NCBI RefSeq assembly: GCF_900215215.1 | Contig: NZ_OBDR01000013.1 | Span: 1 to 50,553, forward strand | Reading direction: 5' to 3' | Length of the DNA: 50,553 nucleotides | DNA from: Methanohalophilus euhalobius | Lineage (GTDB): Archaea > Halobacteriota > Methanosarcinia > Methanosarcinales > Methanosarcinaceae | Shown: positions 18,025 to 29,670 of the stretch, piece after piece | How the letters are laid out: every line of letters begins with the position of its first letter | Position numbering within the stretch: position 1 is the stretch's first letter | Notes under the pieces: generated by a model | Told to the model about the DNA's origin: nothing | Seen by the model: only the letters and a program-made list of their open reading frames with translations | The model's database searches: none | Program-made: the position numbers and the translations under genes

Positions 18025-19743
18025 TTACTTTGAAATCATCCCGTCAATACCCTTTCCAATGTAGGTCACACCGGTTGATTCTATGAAGTTATCACATACT
18101 TGCCGGGCATCCCCCTCTTCAATAACCGAACCTCCGGATAACAAAACTGCCCTGTGGGCTACTTCTTTCACAAAATCCATATGATGGCTGACAAAAACTA
18201 TTGTCGTGCCAAACCTGCGATTTATTTCCTTGAGCGAATTGGTAACATCTCTCAGAGTAATCGGGTCAAGATCTCCAAAAGGTTCATCCAGCATGAGTAT
18301 ATCCGGAGATGTGGCAAGAGATACCGCTATGTAGGACCTCACATGTTCTCCGCCACTTATCTGTGCAGGTTTCTTTTCAAGTATGTCAGGAGAAAGATCC
18401 AGAGCATCAAATACAGGTTCTGCATATTTGGCCACATCGAGTTGCGGCCATGCGGGGAATAATTCAAGATAGACCTGTGGCGTCAGTCCCATTTTTGAAA
18501 GGGATTGTTCTTTTTCTGCCTCTGCCATATCGGGCAACTGATAAATCGTATCCAGCATCTTTTCAGAAATACCCAACTCCTCTGCTTTTTGACGGGCGTG
18601 TTCTATCGCACCCTGTCTTTTGAGCCTGAGTTTAAAGGCAATATGCTGTCCTATTGTGGAATGGGGGGACAACGTAAATTCCTGATGCATGATACTCATT
18701 CTGCGACGCATTTCCATTCTTTGCGGGCTGAAACGGGAAATATCAATCCAGTTATCCTCAAGAGAATAAAGGACCCTTCCGCTTTGAGGTTCGAGAAGGC
18801 CGGCAAGCATCCGCAGCAGGGTTGTCTTGCCACTTCCGGAAGGGCCTATCAAACCCAGTATCTCACCCCTGTTAACAGAAAGAGAGATATCCTTCAGGTC
18901 CAGAACTTCTCCTACCCTCCAGAGGGAATAACGCTTGGCAAGATTTTCTGCCCTGACACAAACCTCCTCTGAAAAAGTACCCAGAGGTTTTTTGTCAGCC
19001 ATCCCATGAAGGAACTTGTCCAGAACTTGTCCAGAGTCACCTGATGCTACAATTTTTCCTTCATCAATGCAGAGCATATCATCGGCAAGGTAACTCAAAA
19101 TTTCCGGCAGATGGGATACTACCAGAATAGGAATGTTGAGTTTTTCTTTCAGAAGAAGAATTATGTCCAGTATTTGCTGTTTGGAATCCGGTCCAGCCAT
19201 TGTGACAGGCTCATCAAGAAGCAGCACGGATGGCCGGGATGCAAGCTGGCGGGCAAGAATCAGACGTTGTTTTTCTCCTCCACTCAATGCTCCGGAGAAA
19301 TGCAGGGCTTTTTCCTTCAAACCCACAATACCCAGATAGGCCATTGCCTCCTCATACATTTCATCGTAAAGAGGGTGATCGTTATCCGGAAGGGCTTCGT
19401 AACCTTCCCTTGCATAATAAAGCCTGCGGATTATATTTTCAACTGCTTTACCGGACCAGAGGCTGAAGTTGCGCTGAAGATGAAGGGCACTATTGCTCAT
19501 CAAAAAACGTTGACCGGTTTGCCCCATATCCGGACTTATAGCCGTTTCGTCAATCTCAATCGTCCCACTGTCAAAGGTTTCAATTCCACGCAAAATTTTA
19601 AGCAAGGTAGATTTGCCACTACCGCTTTTACCTGTAATACCAAGTATTTCGCCATTCTGTACGGTAAAACTGATGTCCTCAAGTACCTGTTTTTTCCCGC
19701 AGGGAGAATCGTAAATTTTTGAAATACCTTTTACTTTAAGCAT
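18025..19743 (-). CDS. atwA: Methyl-coenzyme M reductase activation component A2 (AtwA)
   Basis: A 572-residue twin ABC ATPase with no membrane segments. Domain 1 has Walker A GKSGSGKST, signature LSGGEKQRL and VLLLDEPVT; domain 2 has GPSGSGKTT, ISGGEHVRS and ILMLDEPFGD. Fused soluble ABC pairs of this form in methanogens are component A2, which uses ATP in the reductive activation of the Ni centre of methyl-coenzyme M reductase. The start at 19743 has GAGGTGG directly upstream; the 28-residue upstream extension is out of family. It follows GGGP synthase by 28 nt. Confidence 0.83.
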   Translation of the reverse strand: MLKVKGISKIYDSPCGKKQVLEDISFTVQNGEILGITGKSGSGKSTLLKILRGIETFDSGTIEIDETAISPDMGQTGQRFLMSNSALHLQRNFSLWSGKAVENIIRRLYYAREGYEALPDNDHPLYDEMYEEAMAYLGIVGLKEKALHFSGALSGGEKQRLILARQLASRPSVLLLDEPVTMAGPDSKQQILDIILLLKEKLNIPILVVSHLPEILSYLADDMLCIDEGKIVASGDSGQVLDKFLHGMADKKPLGTFSEEVCVRAENLAKRYSLWRVGEVLDLKDISLSVNRGEILGLIGPSGSGKTTLLRMLAGLLEPQSGRVLYSLEDNWIDISRFSPQRMEMRRRMSIMHQEFTLSPHSTIGQHIAFKLRLKRQGAIEHARQKAEELGISEKMLDTIYQLPDMAEAEKEQSLSKMGLTPQVYLELFPAWPQLDVAKYAEPVFDALDLSPDILEKKPAQISGGEHVRSYIAVSLATSPDILMLDEPFGDLDPITLRDVTNSLKEINRRFGTTIVFVSHHMDFVKEVAHRAVLLSGGSVIEEGDARQVCDNFIESTGVTYIGKGIDGMISK

Positions 19744-19771
19744 TTCCCACCTCATTAAGGGAAATCCATTT

Positions 19772-20515
19772 TTAACTTTTGATCGCAGAAACGAATTCAG
19801 CAATCTTTGCGCGGACATCGCCAGCATCTTCCACGGCAGTACCTGTCACGATCATATCCGCCCCTGCCTTTGCACAGGCAGCTGCAGCATTACGGTCGCG
19901 GATACCTCCACCTACTATCAAGTGTCCTTTATCGATAGCATGTTTCACAGCACCCACCATTTCAACCGGAACCGGATTATCTGCACCCGAACCTGCCTCG
20001 AGATAAACATAGCGCATTCCAAAGTAGGATCCTGCAAGAGCATAGGCTGCAGCAAGCTCCGGTTTTGTACGGGGCAGCAAACGTGCATCCCCTACCCATC
20101 CAACCGTGCCGCCTGGTTCCACTATCAGGTAGGCCATTGGAATGGGTTCAATGCCGAATTTGCGTACAAGAGGTGCACCCATCGCCTGGTTGGTAACAAT
20201 ATAGTTGATATCCCTGGAATTCAGCAGGCTCATGAAAAAAATAGCATCGGCGTATGAGCTCACGCCTGCGGAATCGCCGGGGAAAAGAATAGTTGGCACA
20301 TCAATTTGTTCTTTCATCAGCTGAAGGGTCTGATCAAGAACCTGACCCATCGCTCCGGTGGAACCCCCAATCATTATAGCATCGGTGCCTCCCTCAACGG
20401 CAGCTTTTGCAATCTCTGCCGCCCTTTCGGGTTTTTGGGAGGCGGGGTCTATAAGTGTCAGATGGACACAACCGTCCCTCTTTACAATATTATTGAGGTA
20501 CTCTTCCACCTGCAT
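19772..20515 (-). CDS. Geranylgeranylglyceryl phosphate synthase
   Basis: A 247-residue TIM-barrel prenyltransferase. Visible motifs are HLTLIDP at the N-terminus, MIGGSTG, the TNQAMG segment, YLEAGSGA (phosphate/glycerol site) and GGGIRD near the C-terminus. It joins geranylgeranyl diphosphate to sn-glycerol-1-phosphate, the first committed ether-lipid step. The ATG at 20515 matches the family start; the frame runs upstream through the L40e gene, which overrules earlier starts. It lies 8 nt after L40e, in an operon with atwA. Confidence 0.92.
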   Translation of the reverse strand: MQVEEYLNNIVKRDGCVHLTLIDPASQKPERAAEIAKAAVEGGTDAIMIGGSTGAMGQVLDQTLQLMKEQIDVPTILFPGDSAGVSSYADAIFFMSLLNSRDINYIVTNQAMGAPLVRKFGIEPIPMAYLIVEPGGTVGWVGDARLLPRTKPELAAAYALAGSYFGMRYVYLEAGSGADNPVPVEMVGAVKHAIDKGHLIVGGGIRDRNAAAACAKAGADMIVTGTAVEDAGDVRAKIAEFVSAIKS

Positions 20516-23622: not shown

Positions 23623-23904
23623 TCAGATGATCTTTGGAGTTTTTATGTAGCCTTCCTGTATGTCTTCAGCATTTGCAAGAATGGCAGCCTGCTCCAGGGA
23701 ATCTGTTGGCTTATCTTCCCTGAATACATTCATGACATCGGCAACATGATATGTAGGCTTGACACCCGAGGTTTCCACCTCATCCAGCTGTCCGAAATAA
23801 TCCAGCACAGTGCTTAGTTCCGATGCAAATTCAAAAGCGTCCTCCTCATCGATATTGACCCGTGCAAGCCAGCCGATGTGTTCTACCTGTTCCTTTGTAA
23901 TCAT
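23623..23904 (-). CDS. gatC: Aspartyl/glutamyl-tRNA amidotransferase subunit C
   Basis: A 93-residue GatC, the small protein that wraps GatA and GatB. It begins MITKEQVEHIGWLARVNID and has the conserved ELSTVLDYFGQLDEV helix and the C-terminal NAEDIQEGYIKTPKII. The start at 23904 matches the family; the longer frame upstream adds a non-homologous leader. First gene of gatCAB. Confidence 0.92.
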   Translation of the reverse strand: MITKEQVEHIGWLARVNIDEEDAFEFASELSTVLDYFGQLDEVETSGVKPTYHVADVMNVFREDKPTDSLEQAAILANAEDIQEGYIKTPKII

Positions 23905-23975
23905 AATATGAAGCCTCTGTAAGCGTAATATAGCGTATGTGTTACACAAAAGGTAATGCTATTAATATGTTCTTA

Positions 23976-25139
23976 TCAGGTCTTTTTACTCCTGCGGTTT
24001 ACACCATACATCTGTACCTTTTTCATCCTGGCAAGATTGAGTACCCTGTCCATCTCATAATCCTCCAGGGCCCGGGCCTCCAGAAAACCATTTTCCACAG
24101 CTTCATTGAATATCTCATAACCAATACTGGAGCGGGCAAAAACCGTGGTGTAACCATCCGGCGTACCCACACCCCCGAAACTTATATCGGAATTTTCTGC
24201 CGCCATGTCGGTACAGAACTTGCATGAGGAGGACCTGTATTCATCAAATTCGGACAGAGAGAATCTGCTTATCTGACCTGCCTGCTCAAACTCGAACTTA
24301 CCCTTACGAATCTTCATTGCATCGATATCCGCAAGTCTCATACCATGGGTTTCAACAAATTCCTTAATGCCTTCGTAAGAAAATGTATCCATACAGAATA
24401 ATCCCAGACGCAACACATTGGCTCTCATGAACAGATGCAAAAAGCCATAGGGACTGCGCTGCATCTTGTGGACCGCATCTATATTGCAACTTGGACCTAC
24501 AAAAGCAATACTTCGCATACCCTGCTGAATGGCCTGCATCAACTGTTCCATTGTCATGCTGTGAGAATACATGCTACCAGAGGACTCAAGCACCTGTGCA
24601 CGATCCTCAGCAATAATTGCAACCGGTTTCCAGGGTTGATCCTTTGAATGAGTGGTTACTACCGCACAATCAATCAGGCCTTCCTCCAGTCCATAAGCCA
24701 GCAATGCCGTAACAGCACCTCCATCCTGTCCATTATGTCGGGGAAGCAGGCTTTTGGCACTGTATGCAAACCTGAGTTTGCCCACAAGTTCCTCTTCTGT
24801 AGTAATAGTGCGAGGGCACTGGTTGTAACACACACCACAGGACGTACATGGGCCTACAATCCTGGGACGTTTACCCTTTATTGCTATGGATTCACAGGAT
24901 GCGGCACAGGCTCCGCAAAGGGTACATATGCCTGGCTTGATAACATCTTTGTTAAGTTTGCCAAAAGAAACACGTTTTTTCTCATCAAGACTGCGTTTGA
25001 GACGTATTACGCTTTTTTTCATCTCATTAAATGTTTTCAGGCATTCACTTGAACAAAAATAATAGGTCTTACCATCATACTCCTGCTGGAAAGAAGTGTC
25101 TTCCTCTACTTTTTTTTTACAAATCGGATCCTGTTTCAT
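23976..25139 (-). CDS. FrhB/FpoF-family F420-linked oxidoreductase with N-terminal YHS domain
   Basis: A 387-residue protein. The N-terminus is a YHS metal-binding domain (DPICKKKVEEDTS ... YYFCSSECLKTF, residues about 4-40). Two 4Fe-4S ferredoxin motifs follow (CTLCGACAASC and CTSCGVCYNQCP), then the FrhB N- and C-terminal domains (GQDGGAVTALLAYGLE, FVGPSCNIDAV, CKFCTDMAAENSDISFGGVG). FrhB proteins carry FAD and move electrons between F420 and Fe-S centres. The natural partner is not known. The ATG at 25139 is preceded by GGTGG. Divergent from a radical SAM gene. Confidence 0.82.
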   Translation of the reverse strand: MKQDPICKKKVEEDTSFQQEYDGKTYYFCSSECLKTFNEMKKSVIRLKRSLDEKKRVSFGKLNKDVIKPGICTLCGACAASCESIAIKGKRPRIVGPCTSCGVCYNQCPRTITTEEELVGKLRFAYSAKSLLPRHNGQDGGAVTALLAYGLEEGLIDCAVVTTHSKDQPWKPVAIIAEDRAQVLESSGSMYSHSMTMEQLMQAIQQGMRSIAFVGPSCNIDAVHKMQRSPYGFLHLFMRANVLRLGLFCMDTFSYEGIKEFVETHGMRLADIDAMKIRKGKFEFEQAGQISRFSLSEFDEYRSSSCKFCTDMAAENSDISFGGVGTPDGYTTVFARSSIGYEIFNEAVENGFLEARALEDYEMDRVLNLARMKKVQMYGVNRRSKKT

Positions 25140-25237
25140 TATATCCACCGCAAAAACTGTCTATAATAGGATATAGCTGCACTATTATAAACTGATGGCA
25201 GAAAACTATAATTAATCTTACTACCCACCATGAGTAT

Positions 25238-26215
25238 ATGGATGCCCAGACAAAAGCCGAATTACTGGCAACAGGAAGAGTGGCAATCGATGAAAAACTA
25301 CTCGGGAAAACTACTGTTTCAACTGCAGGACCGGGTGCCGGCAAAGTAGGATTCTTTTTTAGTTCCGGAGGACGCCGGGTAAAACTTGGAGCAGATGCAA
25401 AATCTCCTTTAAAAGCGATTGAAAAGGATGGAAAGATCTGTATCTACAAAGAGGATAAACTGCTTGCCTGCGGACAAATTGAGGAAGAACTGCTTCACTG
25501 TCCCGAGCAGGCGTATATTAATATGACCGAGACCTGTATATTTGACTGTAAATTCTGCCCTGTCCCAAAACTCAATGGCAGGGTCAAATCAGTTGAAGAA
25601 GTGCTGGATATGATAGAAAAAGCACATGATACGAAAAAGATGAAAGCCATATCCATCACTGCCGGGGTTGATGAGACAGTTGAAAAGGAAGTTGAACGGG
25701 CGGTTGAGGTTGTCAGAAAATGCGAAAGATACCATGTACCCATCGGGGTTTCAGTATATCCCACAATCAATTCCAACAAACTGCTAAAAGAAGCCGGCGC
25801 AGATGAGATAAAATATAATGTAGAGACCATGGACCGCCAACTGTACAGCGCACTCTGTGGTGAACAGGACCTTGATTTTATACTGGACTGCCTTTCCGAA
25901 GCTGTCCGGATGTTTGGCAAGAACAAGGTTTGTTCCAATTTCATAATCGGTCTGGGAGAGAGCGATGAAACCGCAATGGAAGGAATCCGGGAACTTGTAC
26001 GAAGAGGTGTGGTTCCTATCCTGAGACCCGCAACAAGCCATCCCCTCAGAAAGAAAGAGGTTAATATAGAGAGGCCTTCAAAGGAACGTATCCTCAAACT
26101 CACCCGTTTCCTGAAAGAGGAGCTGGATCAAGCAGGGCTTGATACAAGACTGTTCAGGACAATGTGCCTGCCATGCACAGGTTGTGATCTGGGCCCTCAT
26201 AGAGATCTGGGATAA
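25238..26215 (+). CDS. Uncharacterised radical SAM protein
   Basis: A 325-residue protein. An unrecognised N-terminal segment of about 85 residues is followed by a radical SAM barrel with CIFDCKFC (CxxxCxxC) near residue 92, and a C-terminal CLPCTGCDLGPH (three cysteines) that could bind another metal centre. The barrel resembles the biotin-synthase/Elp3-like group (GVSVYPT, NFIIGLGE). I do not recognise a characterised methanogen enzyme; it is not Mmp10, whose text differs. It is divergent from the YHS-FrhB gene across a 98-nt spacer. Confidence 0.75.
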   Translation: MDAQTKAELLATGRVAIDEKLLGKTTVSTAGPGAGKVGFFFSSGGRRVKLGADAKSPLKAIEKDGKICIYKEDKLLACGQIEEELLHCPEQAYINMTETCIFDCKFCPVPKLNGRVKSVEEVLDMIEKAHDTKKMKAISITAGVDETVEKEVERAVEVVRKCERYHVPIGVSVYPTINSNKLLKEAGADEIKYNVETMDRQLYSALCGEQDLDFILDCLSEAVRMFGKNKVCSNFIIGLGESDETAMEGIRELVRRGVVPILRPATSHPLRKKEVNIERPSKERILKLTRFLKEELDQAGLDTRLFRTMCLPCTGCDLGPHRDLG

Positions 26216-27679: not shown

Positions 27680-27828
27680 GGAAACCCCTCCAGGACGGGC
27701 AATTGTTGGTTGTGCACTATTTGTGAATAACCATACAAACCTTTAAATGTATGCAGTACAATATAATTCGTAATTAATCAGAATGACAGATATAGCTTAT
27801 GAAATATCTAAATGATGCGAGGGGAAGC

Positions 27829-28221
27829 ATGGACGAACTCGAAGAAATAAGAAAGAGAAGAATGGAAGAGATTAAGACAGATCTCGAAAAGACCAACTGG
27901 CCTGCAGAAGCCATGATAATATCAGATGCCGATTTTGAAGACTTTGTAAGCCGTTATCCACTTGTTGTAGTGGACTGCTGGGCAGAATGGTGTGGTCCCT
28001 GCAAAAGGGTCGGACCGATAATAGATTCCCTTGCCGGGCAGATGCAGGGAGATGTTGTTTTTGGCAAACTTGATACGGACCAGAACCAGGTTACTGCGAG
28101 AAAATTCCAGATCACTGCAATTCCAACCCTTCTTGTGTTCAAAAATGGGCAACTTGCAGACCGAATGGTGGGTGCATTGCCACAGGTAAGCATACAGGAA
28201 AAAATTAAATCATACCTCTGA
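27829..28221 (+). CDS. trxA: Thioredoxin with charged N-terminal extension
   Basis: A 130-residue thioredoxin. The active site WCGPC is near residue 54, the cis-Pro is in AIPTLLVFKNG, and the C-terminal helix ends IQEKIKSYL. About 30 residues before the fold are highly charged (ELEEIRKRRMEEIKTDLEK), which is longer than the usual bacterial form. The ATG at 27829 follows GAGGGGAAG. The methanogenesis marker 14 gene begins 12 nt downstream, so the two are probably cotranscribed. Confidence 0.9.
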   Translation: MDELEEIRKRRMEEIKTDLEKTNWPAEAMIISDADFEDFVSRYPLVVVDCWAEWCGPCKRVGPIIDSLAGQMQGDVVFGKLDTDQNQVTARKFQITAIPTLLVFKNGQLADRMVGALPQVSIQEKIKSYL

Positions 28222-28233
28222 GGGACAGACCTT

Positions 28234-29670
28234 ATGTCACACAAACCCAGGATGGCCGAGACTCCTTCCGTTAGACTGATAGACCTGAAATCAAAATCCA
28301 ATTCCTATTTCATCGTGGCCTCTGTAGAGGTGGGCAATACGACCACCAAATGCATCCTTACGGCCACAGACCTCGAAAAGGGTACGACATACCATGTGGT
28401 GAAAACCGTAAGGATGACAAGGGATGTAAGACAACCAAAACCTGGAGAAAAAGTATTCGGCAAGACGCTTACAGGTGTGGAATTAAGCCGCGAATCCGTG
28501 GCAGAGCTTGTCAAGAATACGCTTCAGGAGGCTGTAAAGAAAGCCAATCTGGATATTAAAAAAGATATTCACTTCGTTGTCCGCTCCACCGGCGTGGTGG
28601 CCGGATTCGATGTACCGGAAGAAGTGGGAGAATTTATCAAAGCTCTTGCAGACGGTTGCCTTATGGCGGGTGTCCCACCCAGGAACATGACGCCTCCGAT
28701 GTCCCAGGATAACATAAACCCCAGATTCAAGAAGTTCAGTAAACTCAATAAAGTTATTTTTGATGGTGCAGTTGCCAGTGTCCTTCCTCCCACAGGGGCC
28801 ACAGGTGTGGAAATCGTGGCCAATGAGATGGAGGGAGAACTTGCAACCGCCGGTATAAAAGAAGGAGCTAAATGGGTGGATGTGGATTTCCGTAATCCCT
28901 GTTTATCGATGGATTTTGGAACCACACTTGACGGGCGTGTCATCAGCCCGGAGGAACCCTATGCAAAGACCATTGGCAACTTCTGTGGCTATGCCGGAGC
29001 CATTCCCGATGCTATAATCCGTGGGACCCAACTTGTGGATTTGGAACTGGGAACCGCTCTGGATGTCTTTGACGAAAGACCACCGGGCATGATTACCATG
29101 TTGTTGAAGGGGAAGAAAATAAAAGAATATGCAAACCGCTTAATGGAAAAAATATCTATCGAAAAGGTACCTGAAAATGTCACCCGTTATGGAAGTGTCC
29201 CTGTAAATCCTGCCGCTGCAGCTGAAATCGGAGTCGTGCTCATTGGATGTGACGTGGGCACCAATGGTTCAAAAATGCATGAATTAACAGAGTTGGGTGC
29301 ACAGATATACAAGGAAGAGGGACTCAAGGTACTGTTCGCAGTAATCGATGAAGTGATGGCAGGTGTAATCTACCGCCTTGTGGAAGTGGCACAGAAAGAA
29401 GGAGTTGTATTTCCTGAAACTTCCATTGGAATCACCGGAAGGGCCGGCATATCAGGAGATAAACCCAAACTTATCCTTGAAAAACTGGAAACAATGGGAT
29501 TGGGAGATAAAATTGAAGAAAAAGTCGTATTTGTCGATGACGGGCTAGCCAGAGGTGCAGCCGTTATGGCACGATGTATGAACTCTCTGGGAACGCCTCA
29601 TAATCCCCTGGGCGGCCATACAGGTGGAAAATGCATCCTCAAGGACAGGATAAAATTGCAAAACCAGTAA
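28234..29670 (+). CDS. Methanogenesis marker protein 14
   Basis: A 478-residue protein of the methanogenesis marker 14 family, found only in methanogens and relatives. It contains ASKHA-like motifs, VEVGNTTTKCIL near residue 32 and SMDFGTTLDGR near residue 227, and GCDVGTNGSK further on, suggesting an actin/Hsp70-fold ATPase similar to activators of reductive metalloenzymes. The function is unknown; repair or activation of a methanogenesis enzyme is an inference. The upstream thioredoxin is tightly linked. Confidence 0.88.
   Translation: MSHKPRMAETPSVRLIDLKSKSNSYFIVASVEVGNTTTKCILTATDLEKGTTYHVVKTVRMTRDVRQPKPGEKVFGKTLTGVELSRESVAELVKNTLQEAVKKANLDIKKDIHFVVRSTGVVAGFDVPEEVGEFIKALADGCLMAGVPPRNMTPPMSQDNINPRFKKFSKLNKVIFDGAVASVLPPTGATGVEIVANEMEGELATAGIKEGAKWVDVDFRNPCLSMDFGTTLDGRVISPEEPYAKTIGNFCGYAGAIPDAIIRGTQLVDLELGTALDVFDERPPGMITMLLKGKKIKEYANRLMEKISIEKVPENVTRYGSVPVNPAAAAEIGVVLIGCDVGTNGSKMHELTELGAQIYKEEGLKVLFAVIDEVMAGVIYRLVEVAQKEGVVFPETSIGITGRAGISGDKPKLILEKLETMGLGDKIEEKVVFVDDGLARGAAVMARCMNSLGTPHNPLGGHTGGKCILKDRIKLQNQ

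Follow-up and report, generated by a model that had tools for sequence, protein, structure and literature searches.

An N-terminal YHS domain on a predicted F420H2-oxidizing core distinguishes a 387-residue protein of Methanohalophilus euhalobius, here called the YHS-FrhB protein. From residue 58 on, its sequence reads as that of an ordinary F420H2 oxidase of the FpoF/Fsr-N type, and the unusual part is the YHS tip alone. We propose, with a probability of about 0.4, that it is an oxidoreductase passing electrons from F420H2 through FAD to three [4Fe-4S] clusters, with a sensor or docking domain for a soft metal (probably copper) at the electron-exit end.

The gene lies in a 50,553-nucleotide stretch (contig NZ_OBDR01000013.1, positions 1 to 50,553), called the window below, and runs on the minus strand from an ATG at 25139 to a stop at 23976 (Table 1). 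The coordinates given by the sequence-only reading, 23976-25139, are thus correct for a 387-aa ORF when read on that strand. That a wrongly placed start or frame had joined two genes was dismissed, since this is a single ORF, has an ATG and a GGTGG of its own, and keeps its length in dozens of species.

Table 1. Features of the YHS-FrhB locus, in window coordinates
Feature	Position	Strand	Basis and remarks
YHS-FrhB gene	23976..25139	-	387 aa, stop included; ORF and translation, full-length orthologs across the order
GGTGG, Shine-Dalgarno-like	25145..25149	-	just upstream of ATG; read from sequence
YHS domain, residues 3-39	25023..25133	-	PF04945; putative metal ligands D4, C7, C29, C33
Ferredoxin domain, residues 65-109	24813..24947	-	PF13237 and related models
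FrhB_FdhB_N domain, residues 125-200	24540..24767	-	PF04422, 86.3 bits
FrhB_FdhB_C domain, residues 209-360	24060..24515	-	PF04432, 142.3 bits
gatC, next gene downstream	23623..23910	-	PF02686 and TIGR00135
Radical SAM gene, uncharacterised, divergent from YHS-FrhB gene	25238-26215	+	family searches
Thioredoxin	27799-28221	+	family searches
Methanogenesis marker 14 (mmp14)	28234-29670	+	family searches

The N-terminal YHS domain claimed by the sequence-only reading is real: the Pfam search matched PF04945 at 44.0 bits (E 2.2e-11) against a curated cut-off of 30.3 bits. That reading erred in calling DPICKKK CxxC-like; the ligands are spaced as D4-x2-C7-x21-C29-x3-C33 and correspond to the D/C-C-C-C set found in YHS/TRASH domains (PMC4626032). 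A YHS match occurs in 36 of 48 aligned relatives, and across these 36 sequences D4, C7 and C33 are invariant; position 29 is Cys, replaced by His in each of the four ANME-2 rows examined. Purifying selection acts on the domain within the genus, with dN/dS of ~0.04-0.17, mostly ~0.06, in ten within-genus pairs (rough values, the part having just 42 codons); the remainder of the protein gives ~0.05-0.09 within genus. A chance match can be set aside, given the score above the curated cut-off, the conservation, the low dN/dS and the fact that the genome scan found no other YHS match.

The isolated YHS domain is predicted to form a beta-hairpin plus helix, and its fold matches, all non-significant (E > 1), include L24e, MYM-TRASH and aromatic monooxygenase YHS domains. 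The AlphaFold model, whose pLDDT is below 50 where the YHS domain meets the ferredoxin domain, does not place the one against the other. YHS/TRASH domains may bind Zn or Cd or be structural, and the YHS domain of toluene 4-hydroxylase is metal-free in its crystal (PMC4626032). Here too the domain could be a structural zinc-finger-like module (a treble clef like that of ribosomal L24e) serving to stabilise the protein or dock it to a partner, with no metal regulation. The weak matches to L24e and MYM-type TRASH zinc fingers point that way, as does the ANME-2 His ligand, which is compatible with Zn; we nevertheless consider this somewhat unlikely, the D-C-C-C set being the one tied to copper in a YHS cyclase (PMC4626032), and Cu ATPases lying near the gene at several loci.

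Behind the YHS domain, Pfam bears out the succession described by the sequence-only reading, two 4Fe-4S motifs and then the FrhB domains. The ferredoxin domain (Fer4_10 at 25.5 bits, at cut-off, for residues 65-109) holds the motifs C72 C75 C78 C82 and C98 C101 C104 C108, and FrhB_FdhB_C contains the ligands of a proximal [4Fe-4S] cluster (C218, C249, C306, C309); all 12 cysteines, eight ferredoxin and four proximal, are invariant in the 48 relatives. Residues 58-376 resemble Fsr, the F420-reducing CODH beta subunit and FrhB in both sequence and fold (PDB search, Foldseek). The two domains, the proximal ligands and the fold all place the protein in the FrhB/FdhB family, and homology suggests that it uses FAD and F420. 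The further claim that its domain order differs from those of FrhB, FpoF and Fsr is right for the YHS tip, but residues 58-376 follow the ferredoxin plus FrhB order of FpoF and Fsr-N.

FrhB-type modules serve many enzymes, among them Frh, Fdh, Fpo, Fsr, glutamate synthase and F420-CODH, and the genome has three FrhB_C matches including this one. FpoF/FqoF, the electron-input subunit of F420H2 dehydrogenase, likewise places FrhB_N and FrhB_C behind a 2x[4Fe-4S] ferredoxin domain, but lacks a YHS domain and is part of the fpo complex. Our protein is not FpoF: it scores 120.5 bits with the FpoF model NF040616 (cut-off 475), and the true FpoF, at 690 bits, is encoded elsewhere in the genome. Nor is it the FrhB of the F420-reducing hydrogenase, reaching 186.3 bits with TIGR03289 against a cut-off of 331.5. 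Fsr, F420-dependent sulfite reductase, provides the best PDB sequence match (7np8, E 1.2e-51), and its N-terminal half (Fsr-N) shares the domain order and cluster ligands, a layout defined for Fsr-N and FpoF by Susanti and Mukhopadhyay (PMC3448663). The YHS-FrhB protein differs from Fsr in its added N-terminal YHS domain and in stopping at 387 aa after FrhB_C, with no NIR_SIR siroheme sulfite reductase half found by Pfam, and cannot be Fsr itself. The top Foldseek match of the predicted model, the F420-reducing CODH component 8riu_B of Ca. Ethanoperedens, again has the ferredoxin plus FrhB layout; it is 29% identical, lacks YHS and has CODH as partner.

In Fsr, electrons pass from FAD to cluster 1, to the N-terminal ferredoxin clusters 2 and 3 and on to the partner (PMC10229431). 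By family resemblance, the YHS-FrhB protein would be a cytosolic F420H2 oxidoreductase of FpoF/Fsr-N build, in which FAD, bound in the FrhB domain, accepts a hydride from F420H2 and single electrons travel from FAD to the proximal cluster, then to the two ferredoxin clusters and a redox partner. What this partner is, we can only guess. We also guess that the YHS domain, fused right before the electron-exit ferredoxin domain, binds a soft transition metal via D4, C7, C29 and C33, and that it may be a sensor or docking switch gating or directing electron output under metal stress. Copper is the favoured candidate metal by analogy, because the Mycobacterium phlei adenylyl cyclase owes its activation by copper to a YHS domain with this type of ligand set (PMC4626032) and because genes for Cu ATPases lie near those of some relatives. 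The M. phlei enzyme likewise joins a D-C-C-C YHS domain to an enzyme, but its catalytic domain is unrelated and its YHS domain is C-terminal. The metal-sensing or metal-reducing function suggested by the sequence-only reading is a fair guess from such YHS precedents.

Comparison of ortholog loci revealed no conserved operon partner; the neighbours vary by genus, so context cannot name the electron acceptor. They are gatCAB and mmp14 in Methanosarcina; radical SAM, CopA, thioredoxin and mmp14 in Methanolobus; a U32-like peptidase in ANME-2; and PAP2 and DUF5350 in Methanoperedens. In the window, gatC is followed by two minus-strand ORFs that we take, by eye from the ORF list, to be gatA and gatB. 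The order YHS-FrhB gene then gatC recurs at Methanosarcina loci, and gatC is probably an incidental operon neighbour. Family searches found a DUF166 gene on the same flank as the radical SAM, thioredoxin and marker 14 genes. This radical SAM, thioredoxin and marker 14 neighbourhood is common to Methanohalophilus and Methanolobus, the Methanolobus version also having CopA and a small membrane protein. Further off in the window, an ORF at 18025-19827 (minus strand) encodes a 600-aa ABC-type ATPase with two ATP-binding halves that, by eye, resembles component A2 of the methyl-CoM reductase activation system. In METP1 (L144, 6523-8775) a rubrerythrin-family gene flanks the ortholog on either side; one of the two encodes a rubredoxin-like domain, and their products could be local redox partners.

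CopA-type Cu ATPases (CPC motif) are encoded 2-6 genes from the ortholog in Methanolobus-type loci, and copper-type P-type ATPases 2-3 genes away in two Methanoperedens contexts. Genomes with such an ATPase near the YHS-FrhB gene have just ~2-5 Cu ATPase genes each. With conserved synteny counted once, the copper link amounts to about three independent cases, and it is an association, not proof. No Cu ATPase neighbour was found in the window or in Methanosarcina or ANME-2 loci, and the two Cu ATPase copies of the source genome are on other contigs. The Methanomethylovorans copy (L050) has a P-type ATPase next to it, which was discarded as copper evidence, not being among that genome's TIGR01511 matches. 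Stand-alone YHS ORFs of the same order lie 0.3, 3.3 and 6.9 kb from Cu ATPases in a few genomes; most of those listed are not near one.

Six Methanolobus-type loci (L084, L088, L100, L104, L108, L124) have as divergent neighbour a siroheme-type NIR_SIR gene with Fe-S motifs. Since Fsr combines such parts in one fusion (PMC3448663), the YHS-FrhB protein might supply the F420H2-oxidizing half of a sulfite or nitrite reductase made of two proteins, the siroheme protein being the acceptor. We find this very unlikely: the pairing is confined to one genus-level group, with no siroheme neighbour in the window or in Methanosarcina, ANME-2 or Methanoperedens loci, the siroheme gene is divergent rather than co-transcribed, and the YHS domain would be left without a role.

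Full-length orthologs including the YHS domain (55-97% identity) were found in most Methanosarcinaceae and also in two further families, recognised through named relatives as ANME-2 and Methanoperedens, among 186 genomes of the order. Outside the order, in a 393-genome sample of the phylum, alignments among the matches listed start past the YHS part and represent FrhB-type paralogs. A maximum-likelihood tree of the core (unrooted, and with some long outgroup branches) unites the Methanosarcinales cores in one clade (support 100/99), which shares with Asgard and Theionarchaea relatives a long stem (100/100) apart from FpoF, FrhB and other paralogs. These relatives, the core's sister group (FrhB-like proteins of Helarchaeota, Lokiarchaeota, Njordarchaeota and Theionarchaea, 45-50% identical), lack YHS; the Asgard ones (L145, L148, L150, L151, L153-L155) have in its place a C-terminal extension of ~110-120 residues, which in L150 has no Pfam match. 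At several of these Asgard loci the core gene is followed by a small GTPase-like gene and one for a 386-398 aa protein. The simplest story from these sequences would be one YHS gain in an ancestor of Methanosarcinales.

Loss or decay of the YHS domain is seen in a few lineages: second copies in some Methanolobus begin at residue 41-42, without it, the tip is degenerate in Methanomethylovorans, and C33 is lost in Methanolobus profundi. The domain thus looks accessory to the redox core, and its absence from the sister clade and the second Methanolobus copies fits that expectation. In four Methanosarcina-like genomes (G153, G081, G159, G177) the ortholog is seemingly broken by frameshifts or stops, which suggests recent loss. 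Six species (L071, L180-L184) of a genus recognised as Methanococcoides through the M. vulcani locus L101 have an in-frame TAG at residue 341, where sister species have a Tyr codon, followed by 45 conserved codons up to the normal C-terminus; since PylB is encoded in the TAG-bearing genomes (G092-G095, G099, G100), pyrrolysine read-through is likely.

Core homologs without YHS also argue that the core reaction does not require the metal, and this bears on whether the protein is instead an F420H2-dependent metal reductase. Its YHS domain would then be a metallochaperone, as NmerA is for MerA, from which the redox core receives a soft metal such as Hg, Cu or Ag. MerA with NmerA embodies the shared idea, that of a flavin reductase bearing a soft-metal domain at its N-terminus, though to our knowledge it has other folds, another electron donor and no sequence relation to the YHS-FrhB protein. 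The placement of YHS before the electron-exit ferredoxin domain would suit such a reductase, and mer operons of Sulfolobus encode stand-alone TRASH proteins (PMC3466566). Next to the YHS-FrhB gene, however, no mer genes were seen, and the redox core persists where YHS is lost. FrhB cores usually feed protein partners, and none is known to reduce metals directly; together with the survival of the core without YHS, this makes the metal reductase quite unlikely. In a strongly reducing cytosol, moreover, copper should already be Cu(I). Equally doubtful is a wider formulation, an F420H2-driven metal reductase or metal-switched F420H2 oxidase whose YHS metallochaperone or sensor is connected with the F420 pool by way of Fe-S clusters and FAD; if true, it would give methanogens and ANME a means against copper, mercury or similar metals.

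Returning to the F420H2 oxidoreductase with a metal sensor or docking domain, we found no paper in the open-access literature joining a YHS domain with FrhB, or F420H2 with YHS. Open-access literature on YHS in methanogens or Methanosarcina held nothing on the YHS-FrhB protein, and an ANME comparative study reports many FrhB paralogs, several of no known function, with YHS unmentioned (PMC9012536). What is new is the YHS tip on a known FpoF/Fsr-N-type core, conserved across methane-making and methane-eating archaea. F420H2 is a central electron currency of these methanogenic and methanotrophic archaea. The presence of the clade in most Methanosarcinaceae, in ANME-2 and in Methanoperedens means that it is probably useful to the cell, and the carriers include cultured strains of Methanolobus, Methanosarcina, Methanococcoides and Methanohalophilus, which makes the idea testable. 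Should the YHS domain sense copper or some other soft metal, or hand it on, the protein would link metal stress directly to F420 electron flow in methane-cycling archaea.
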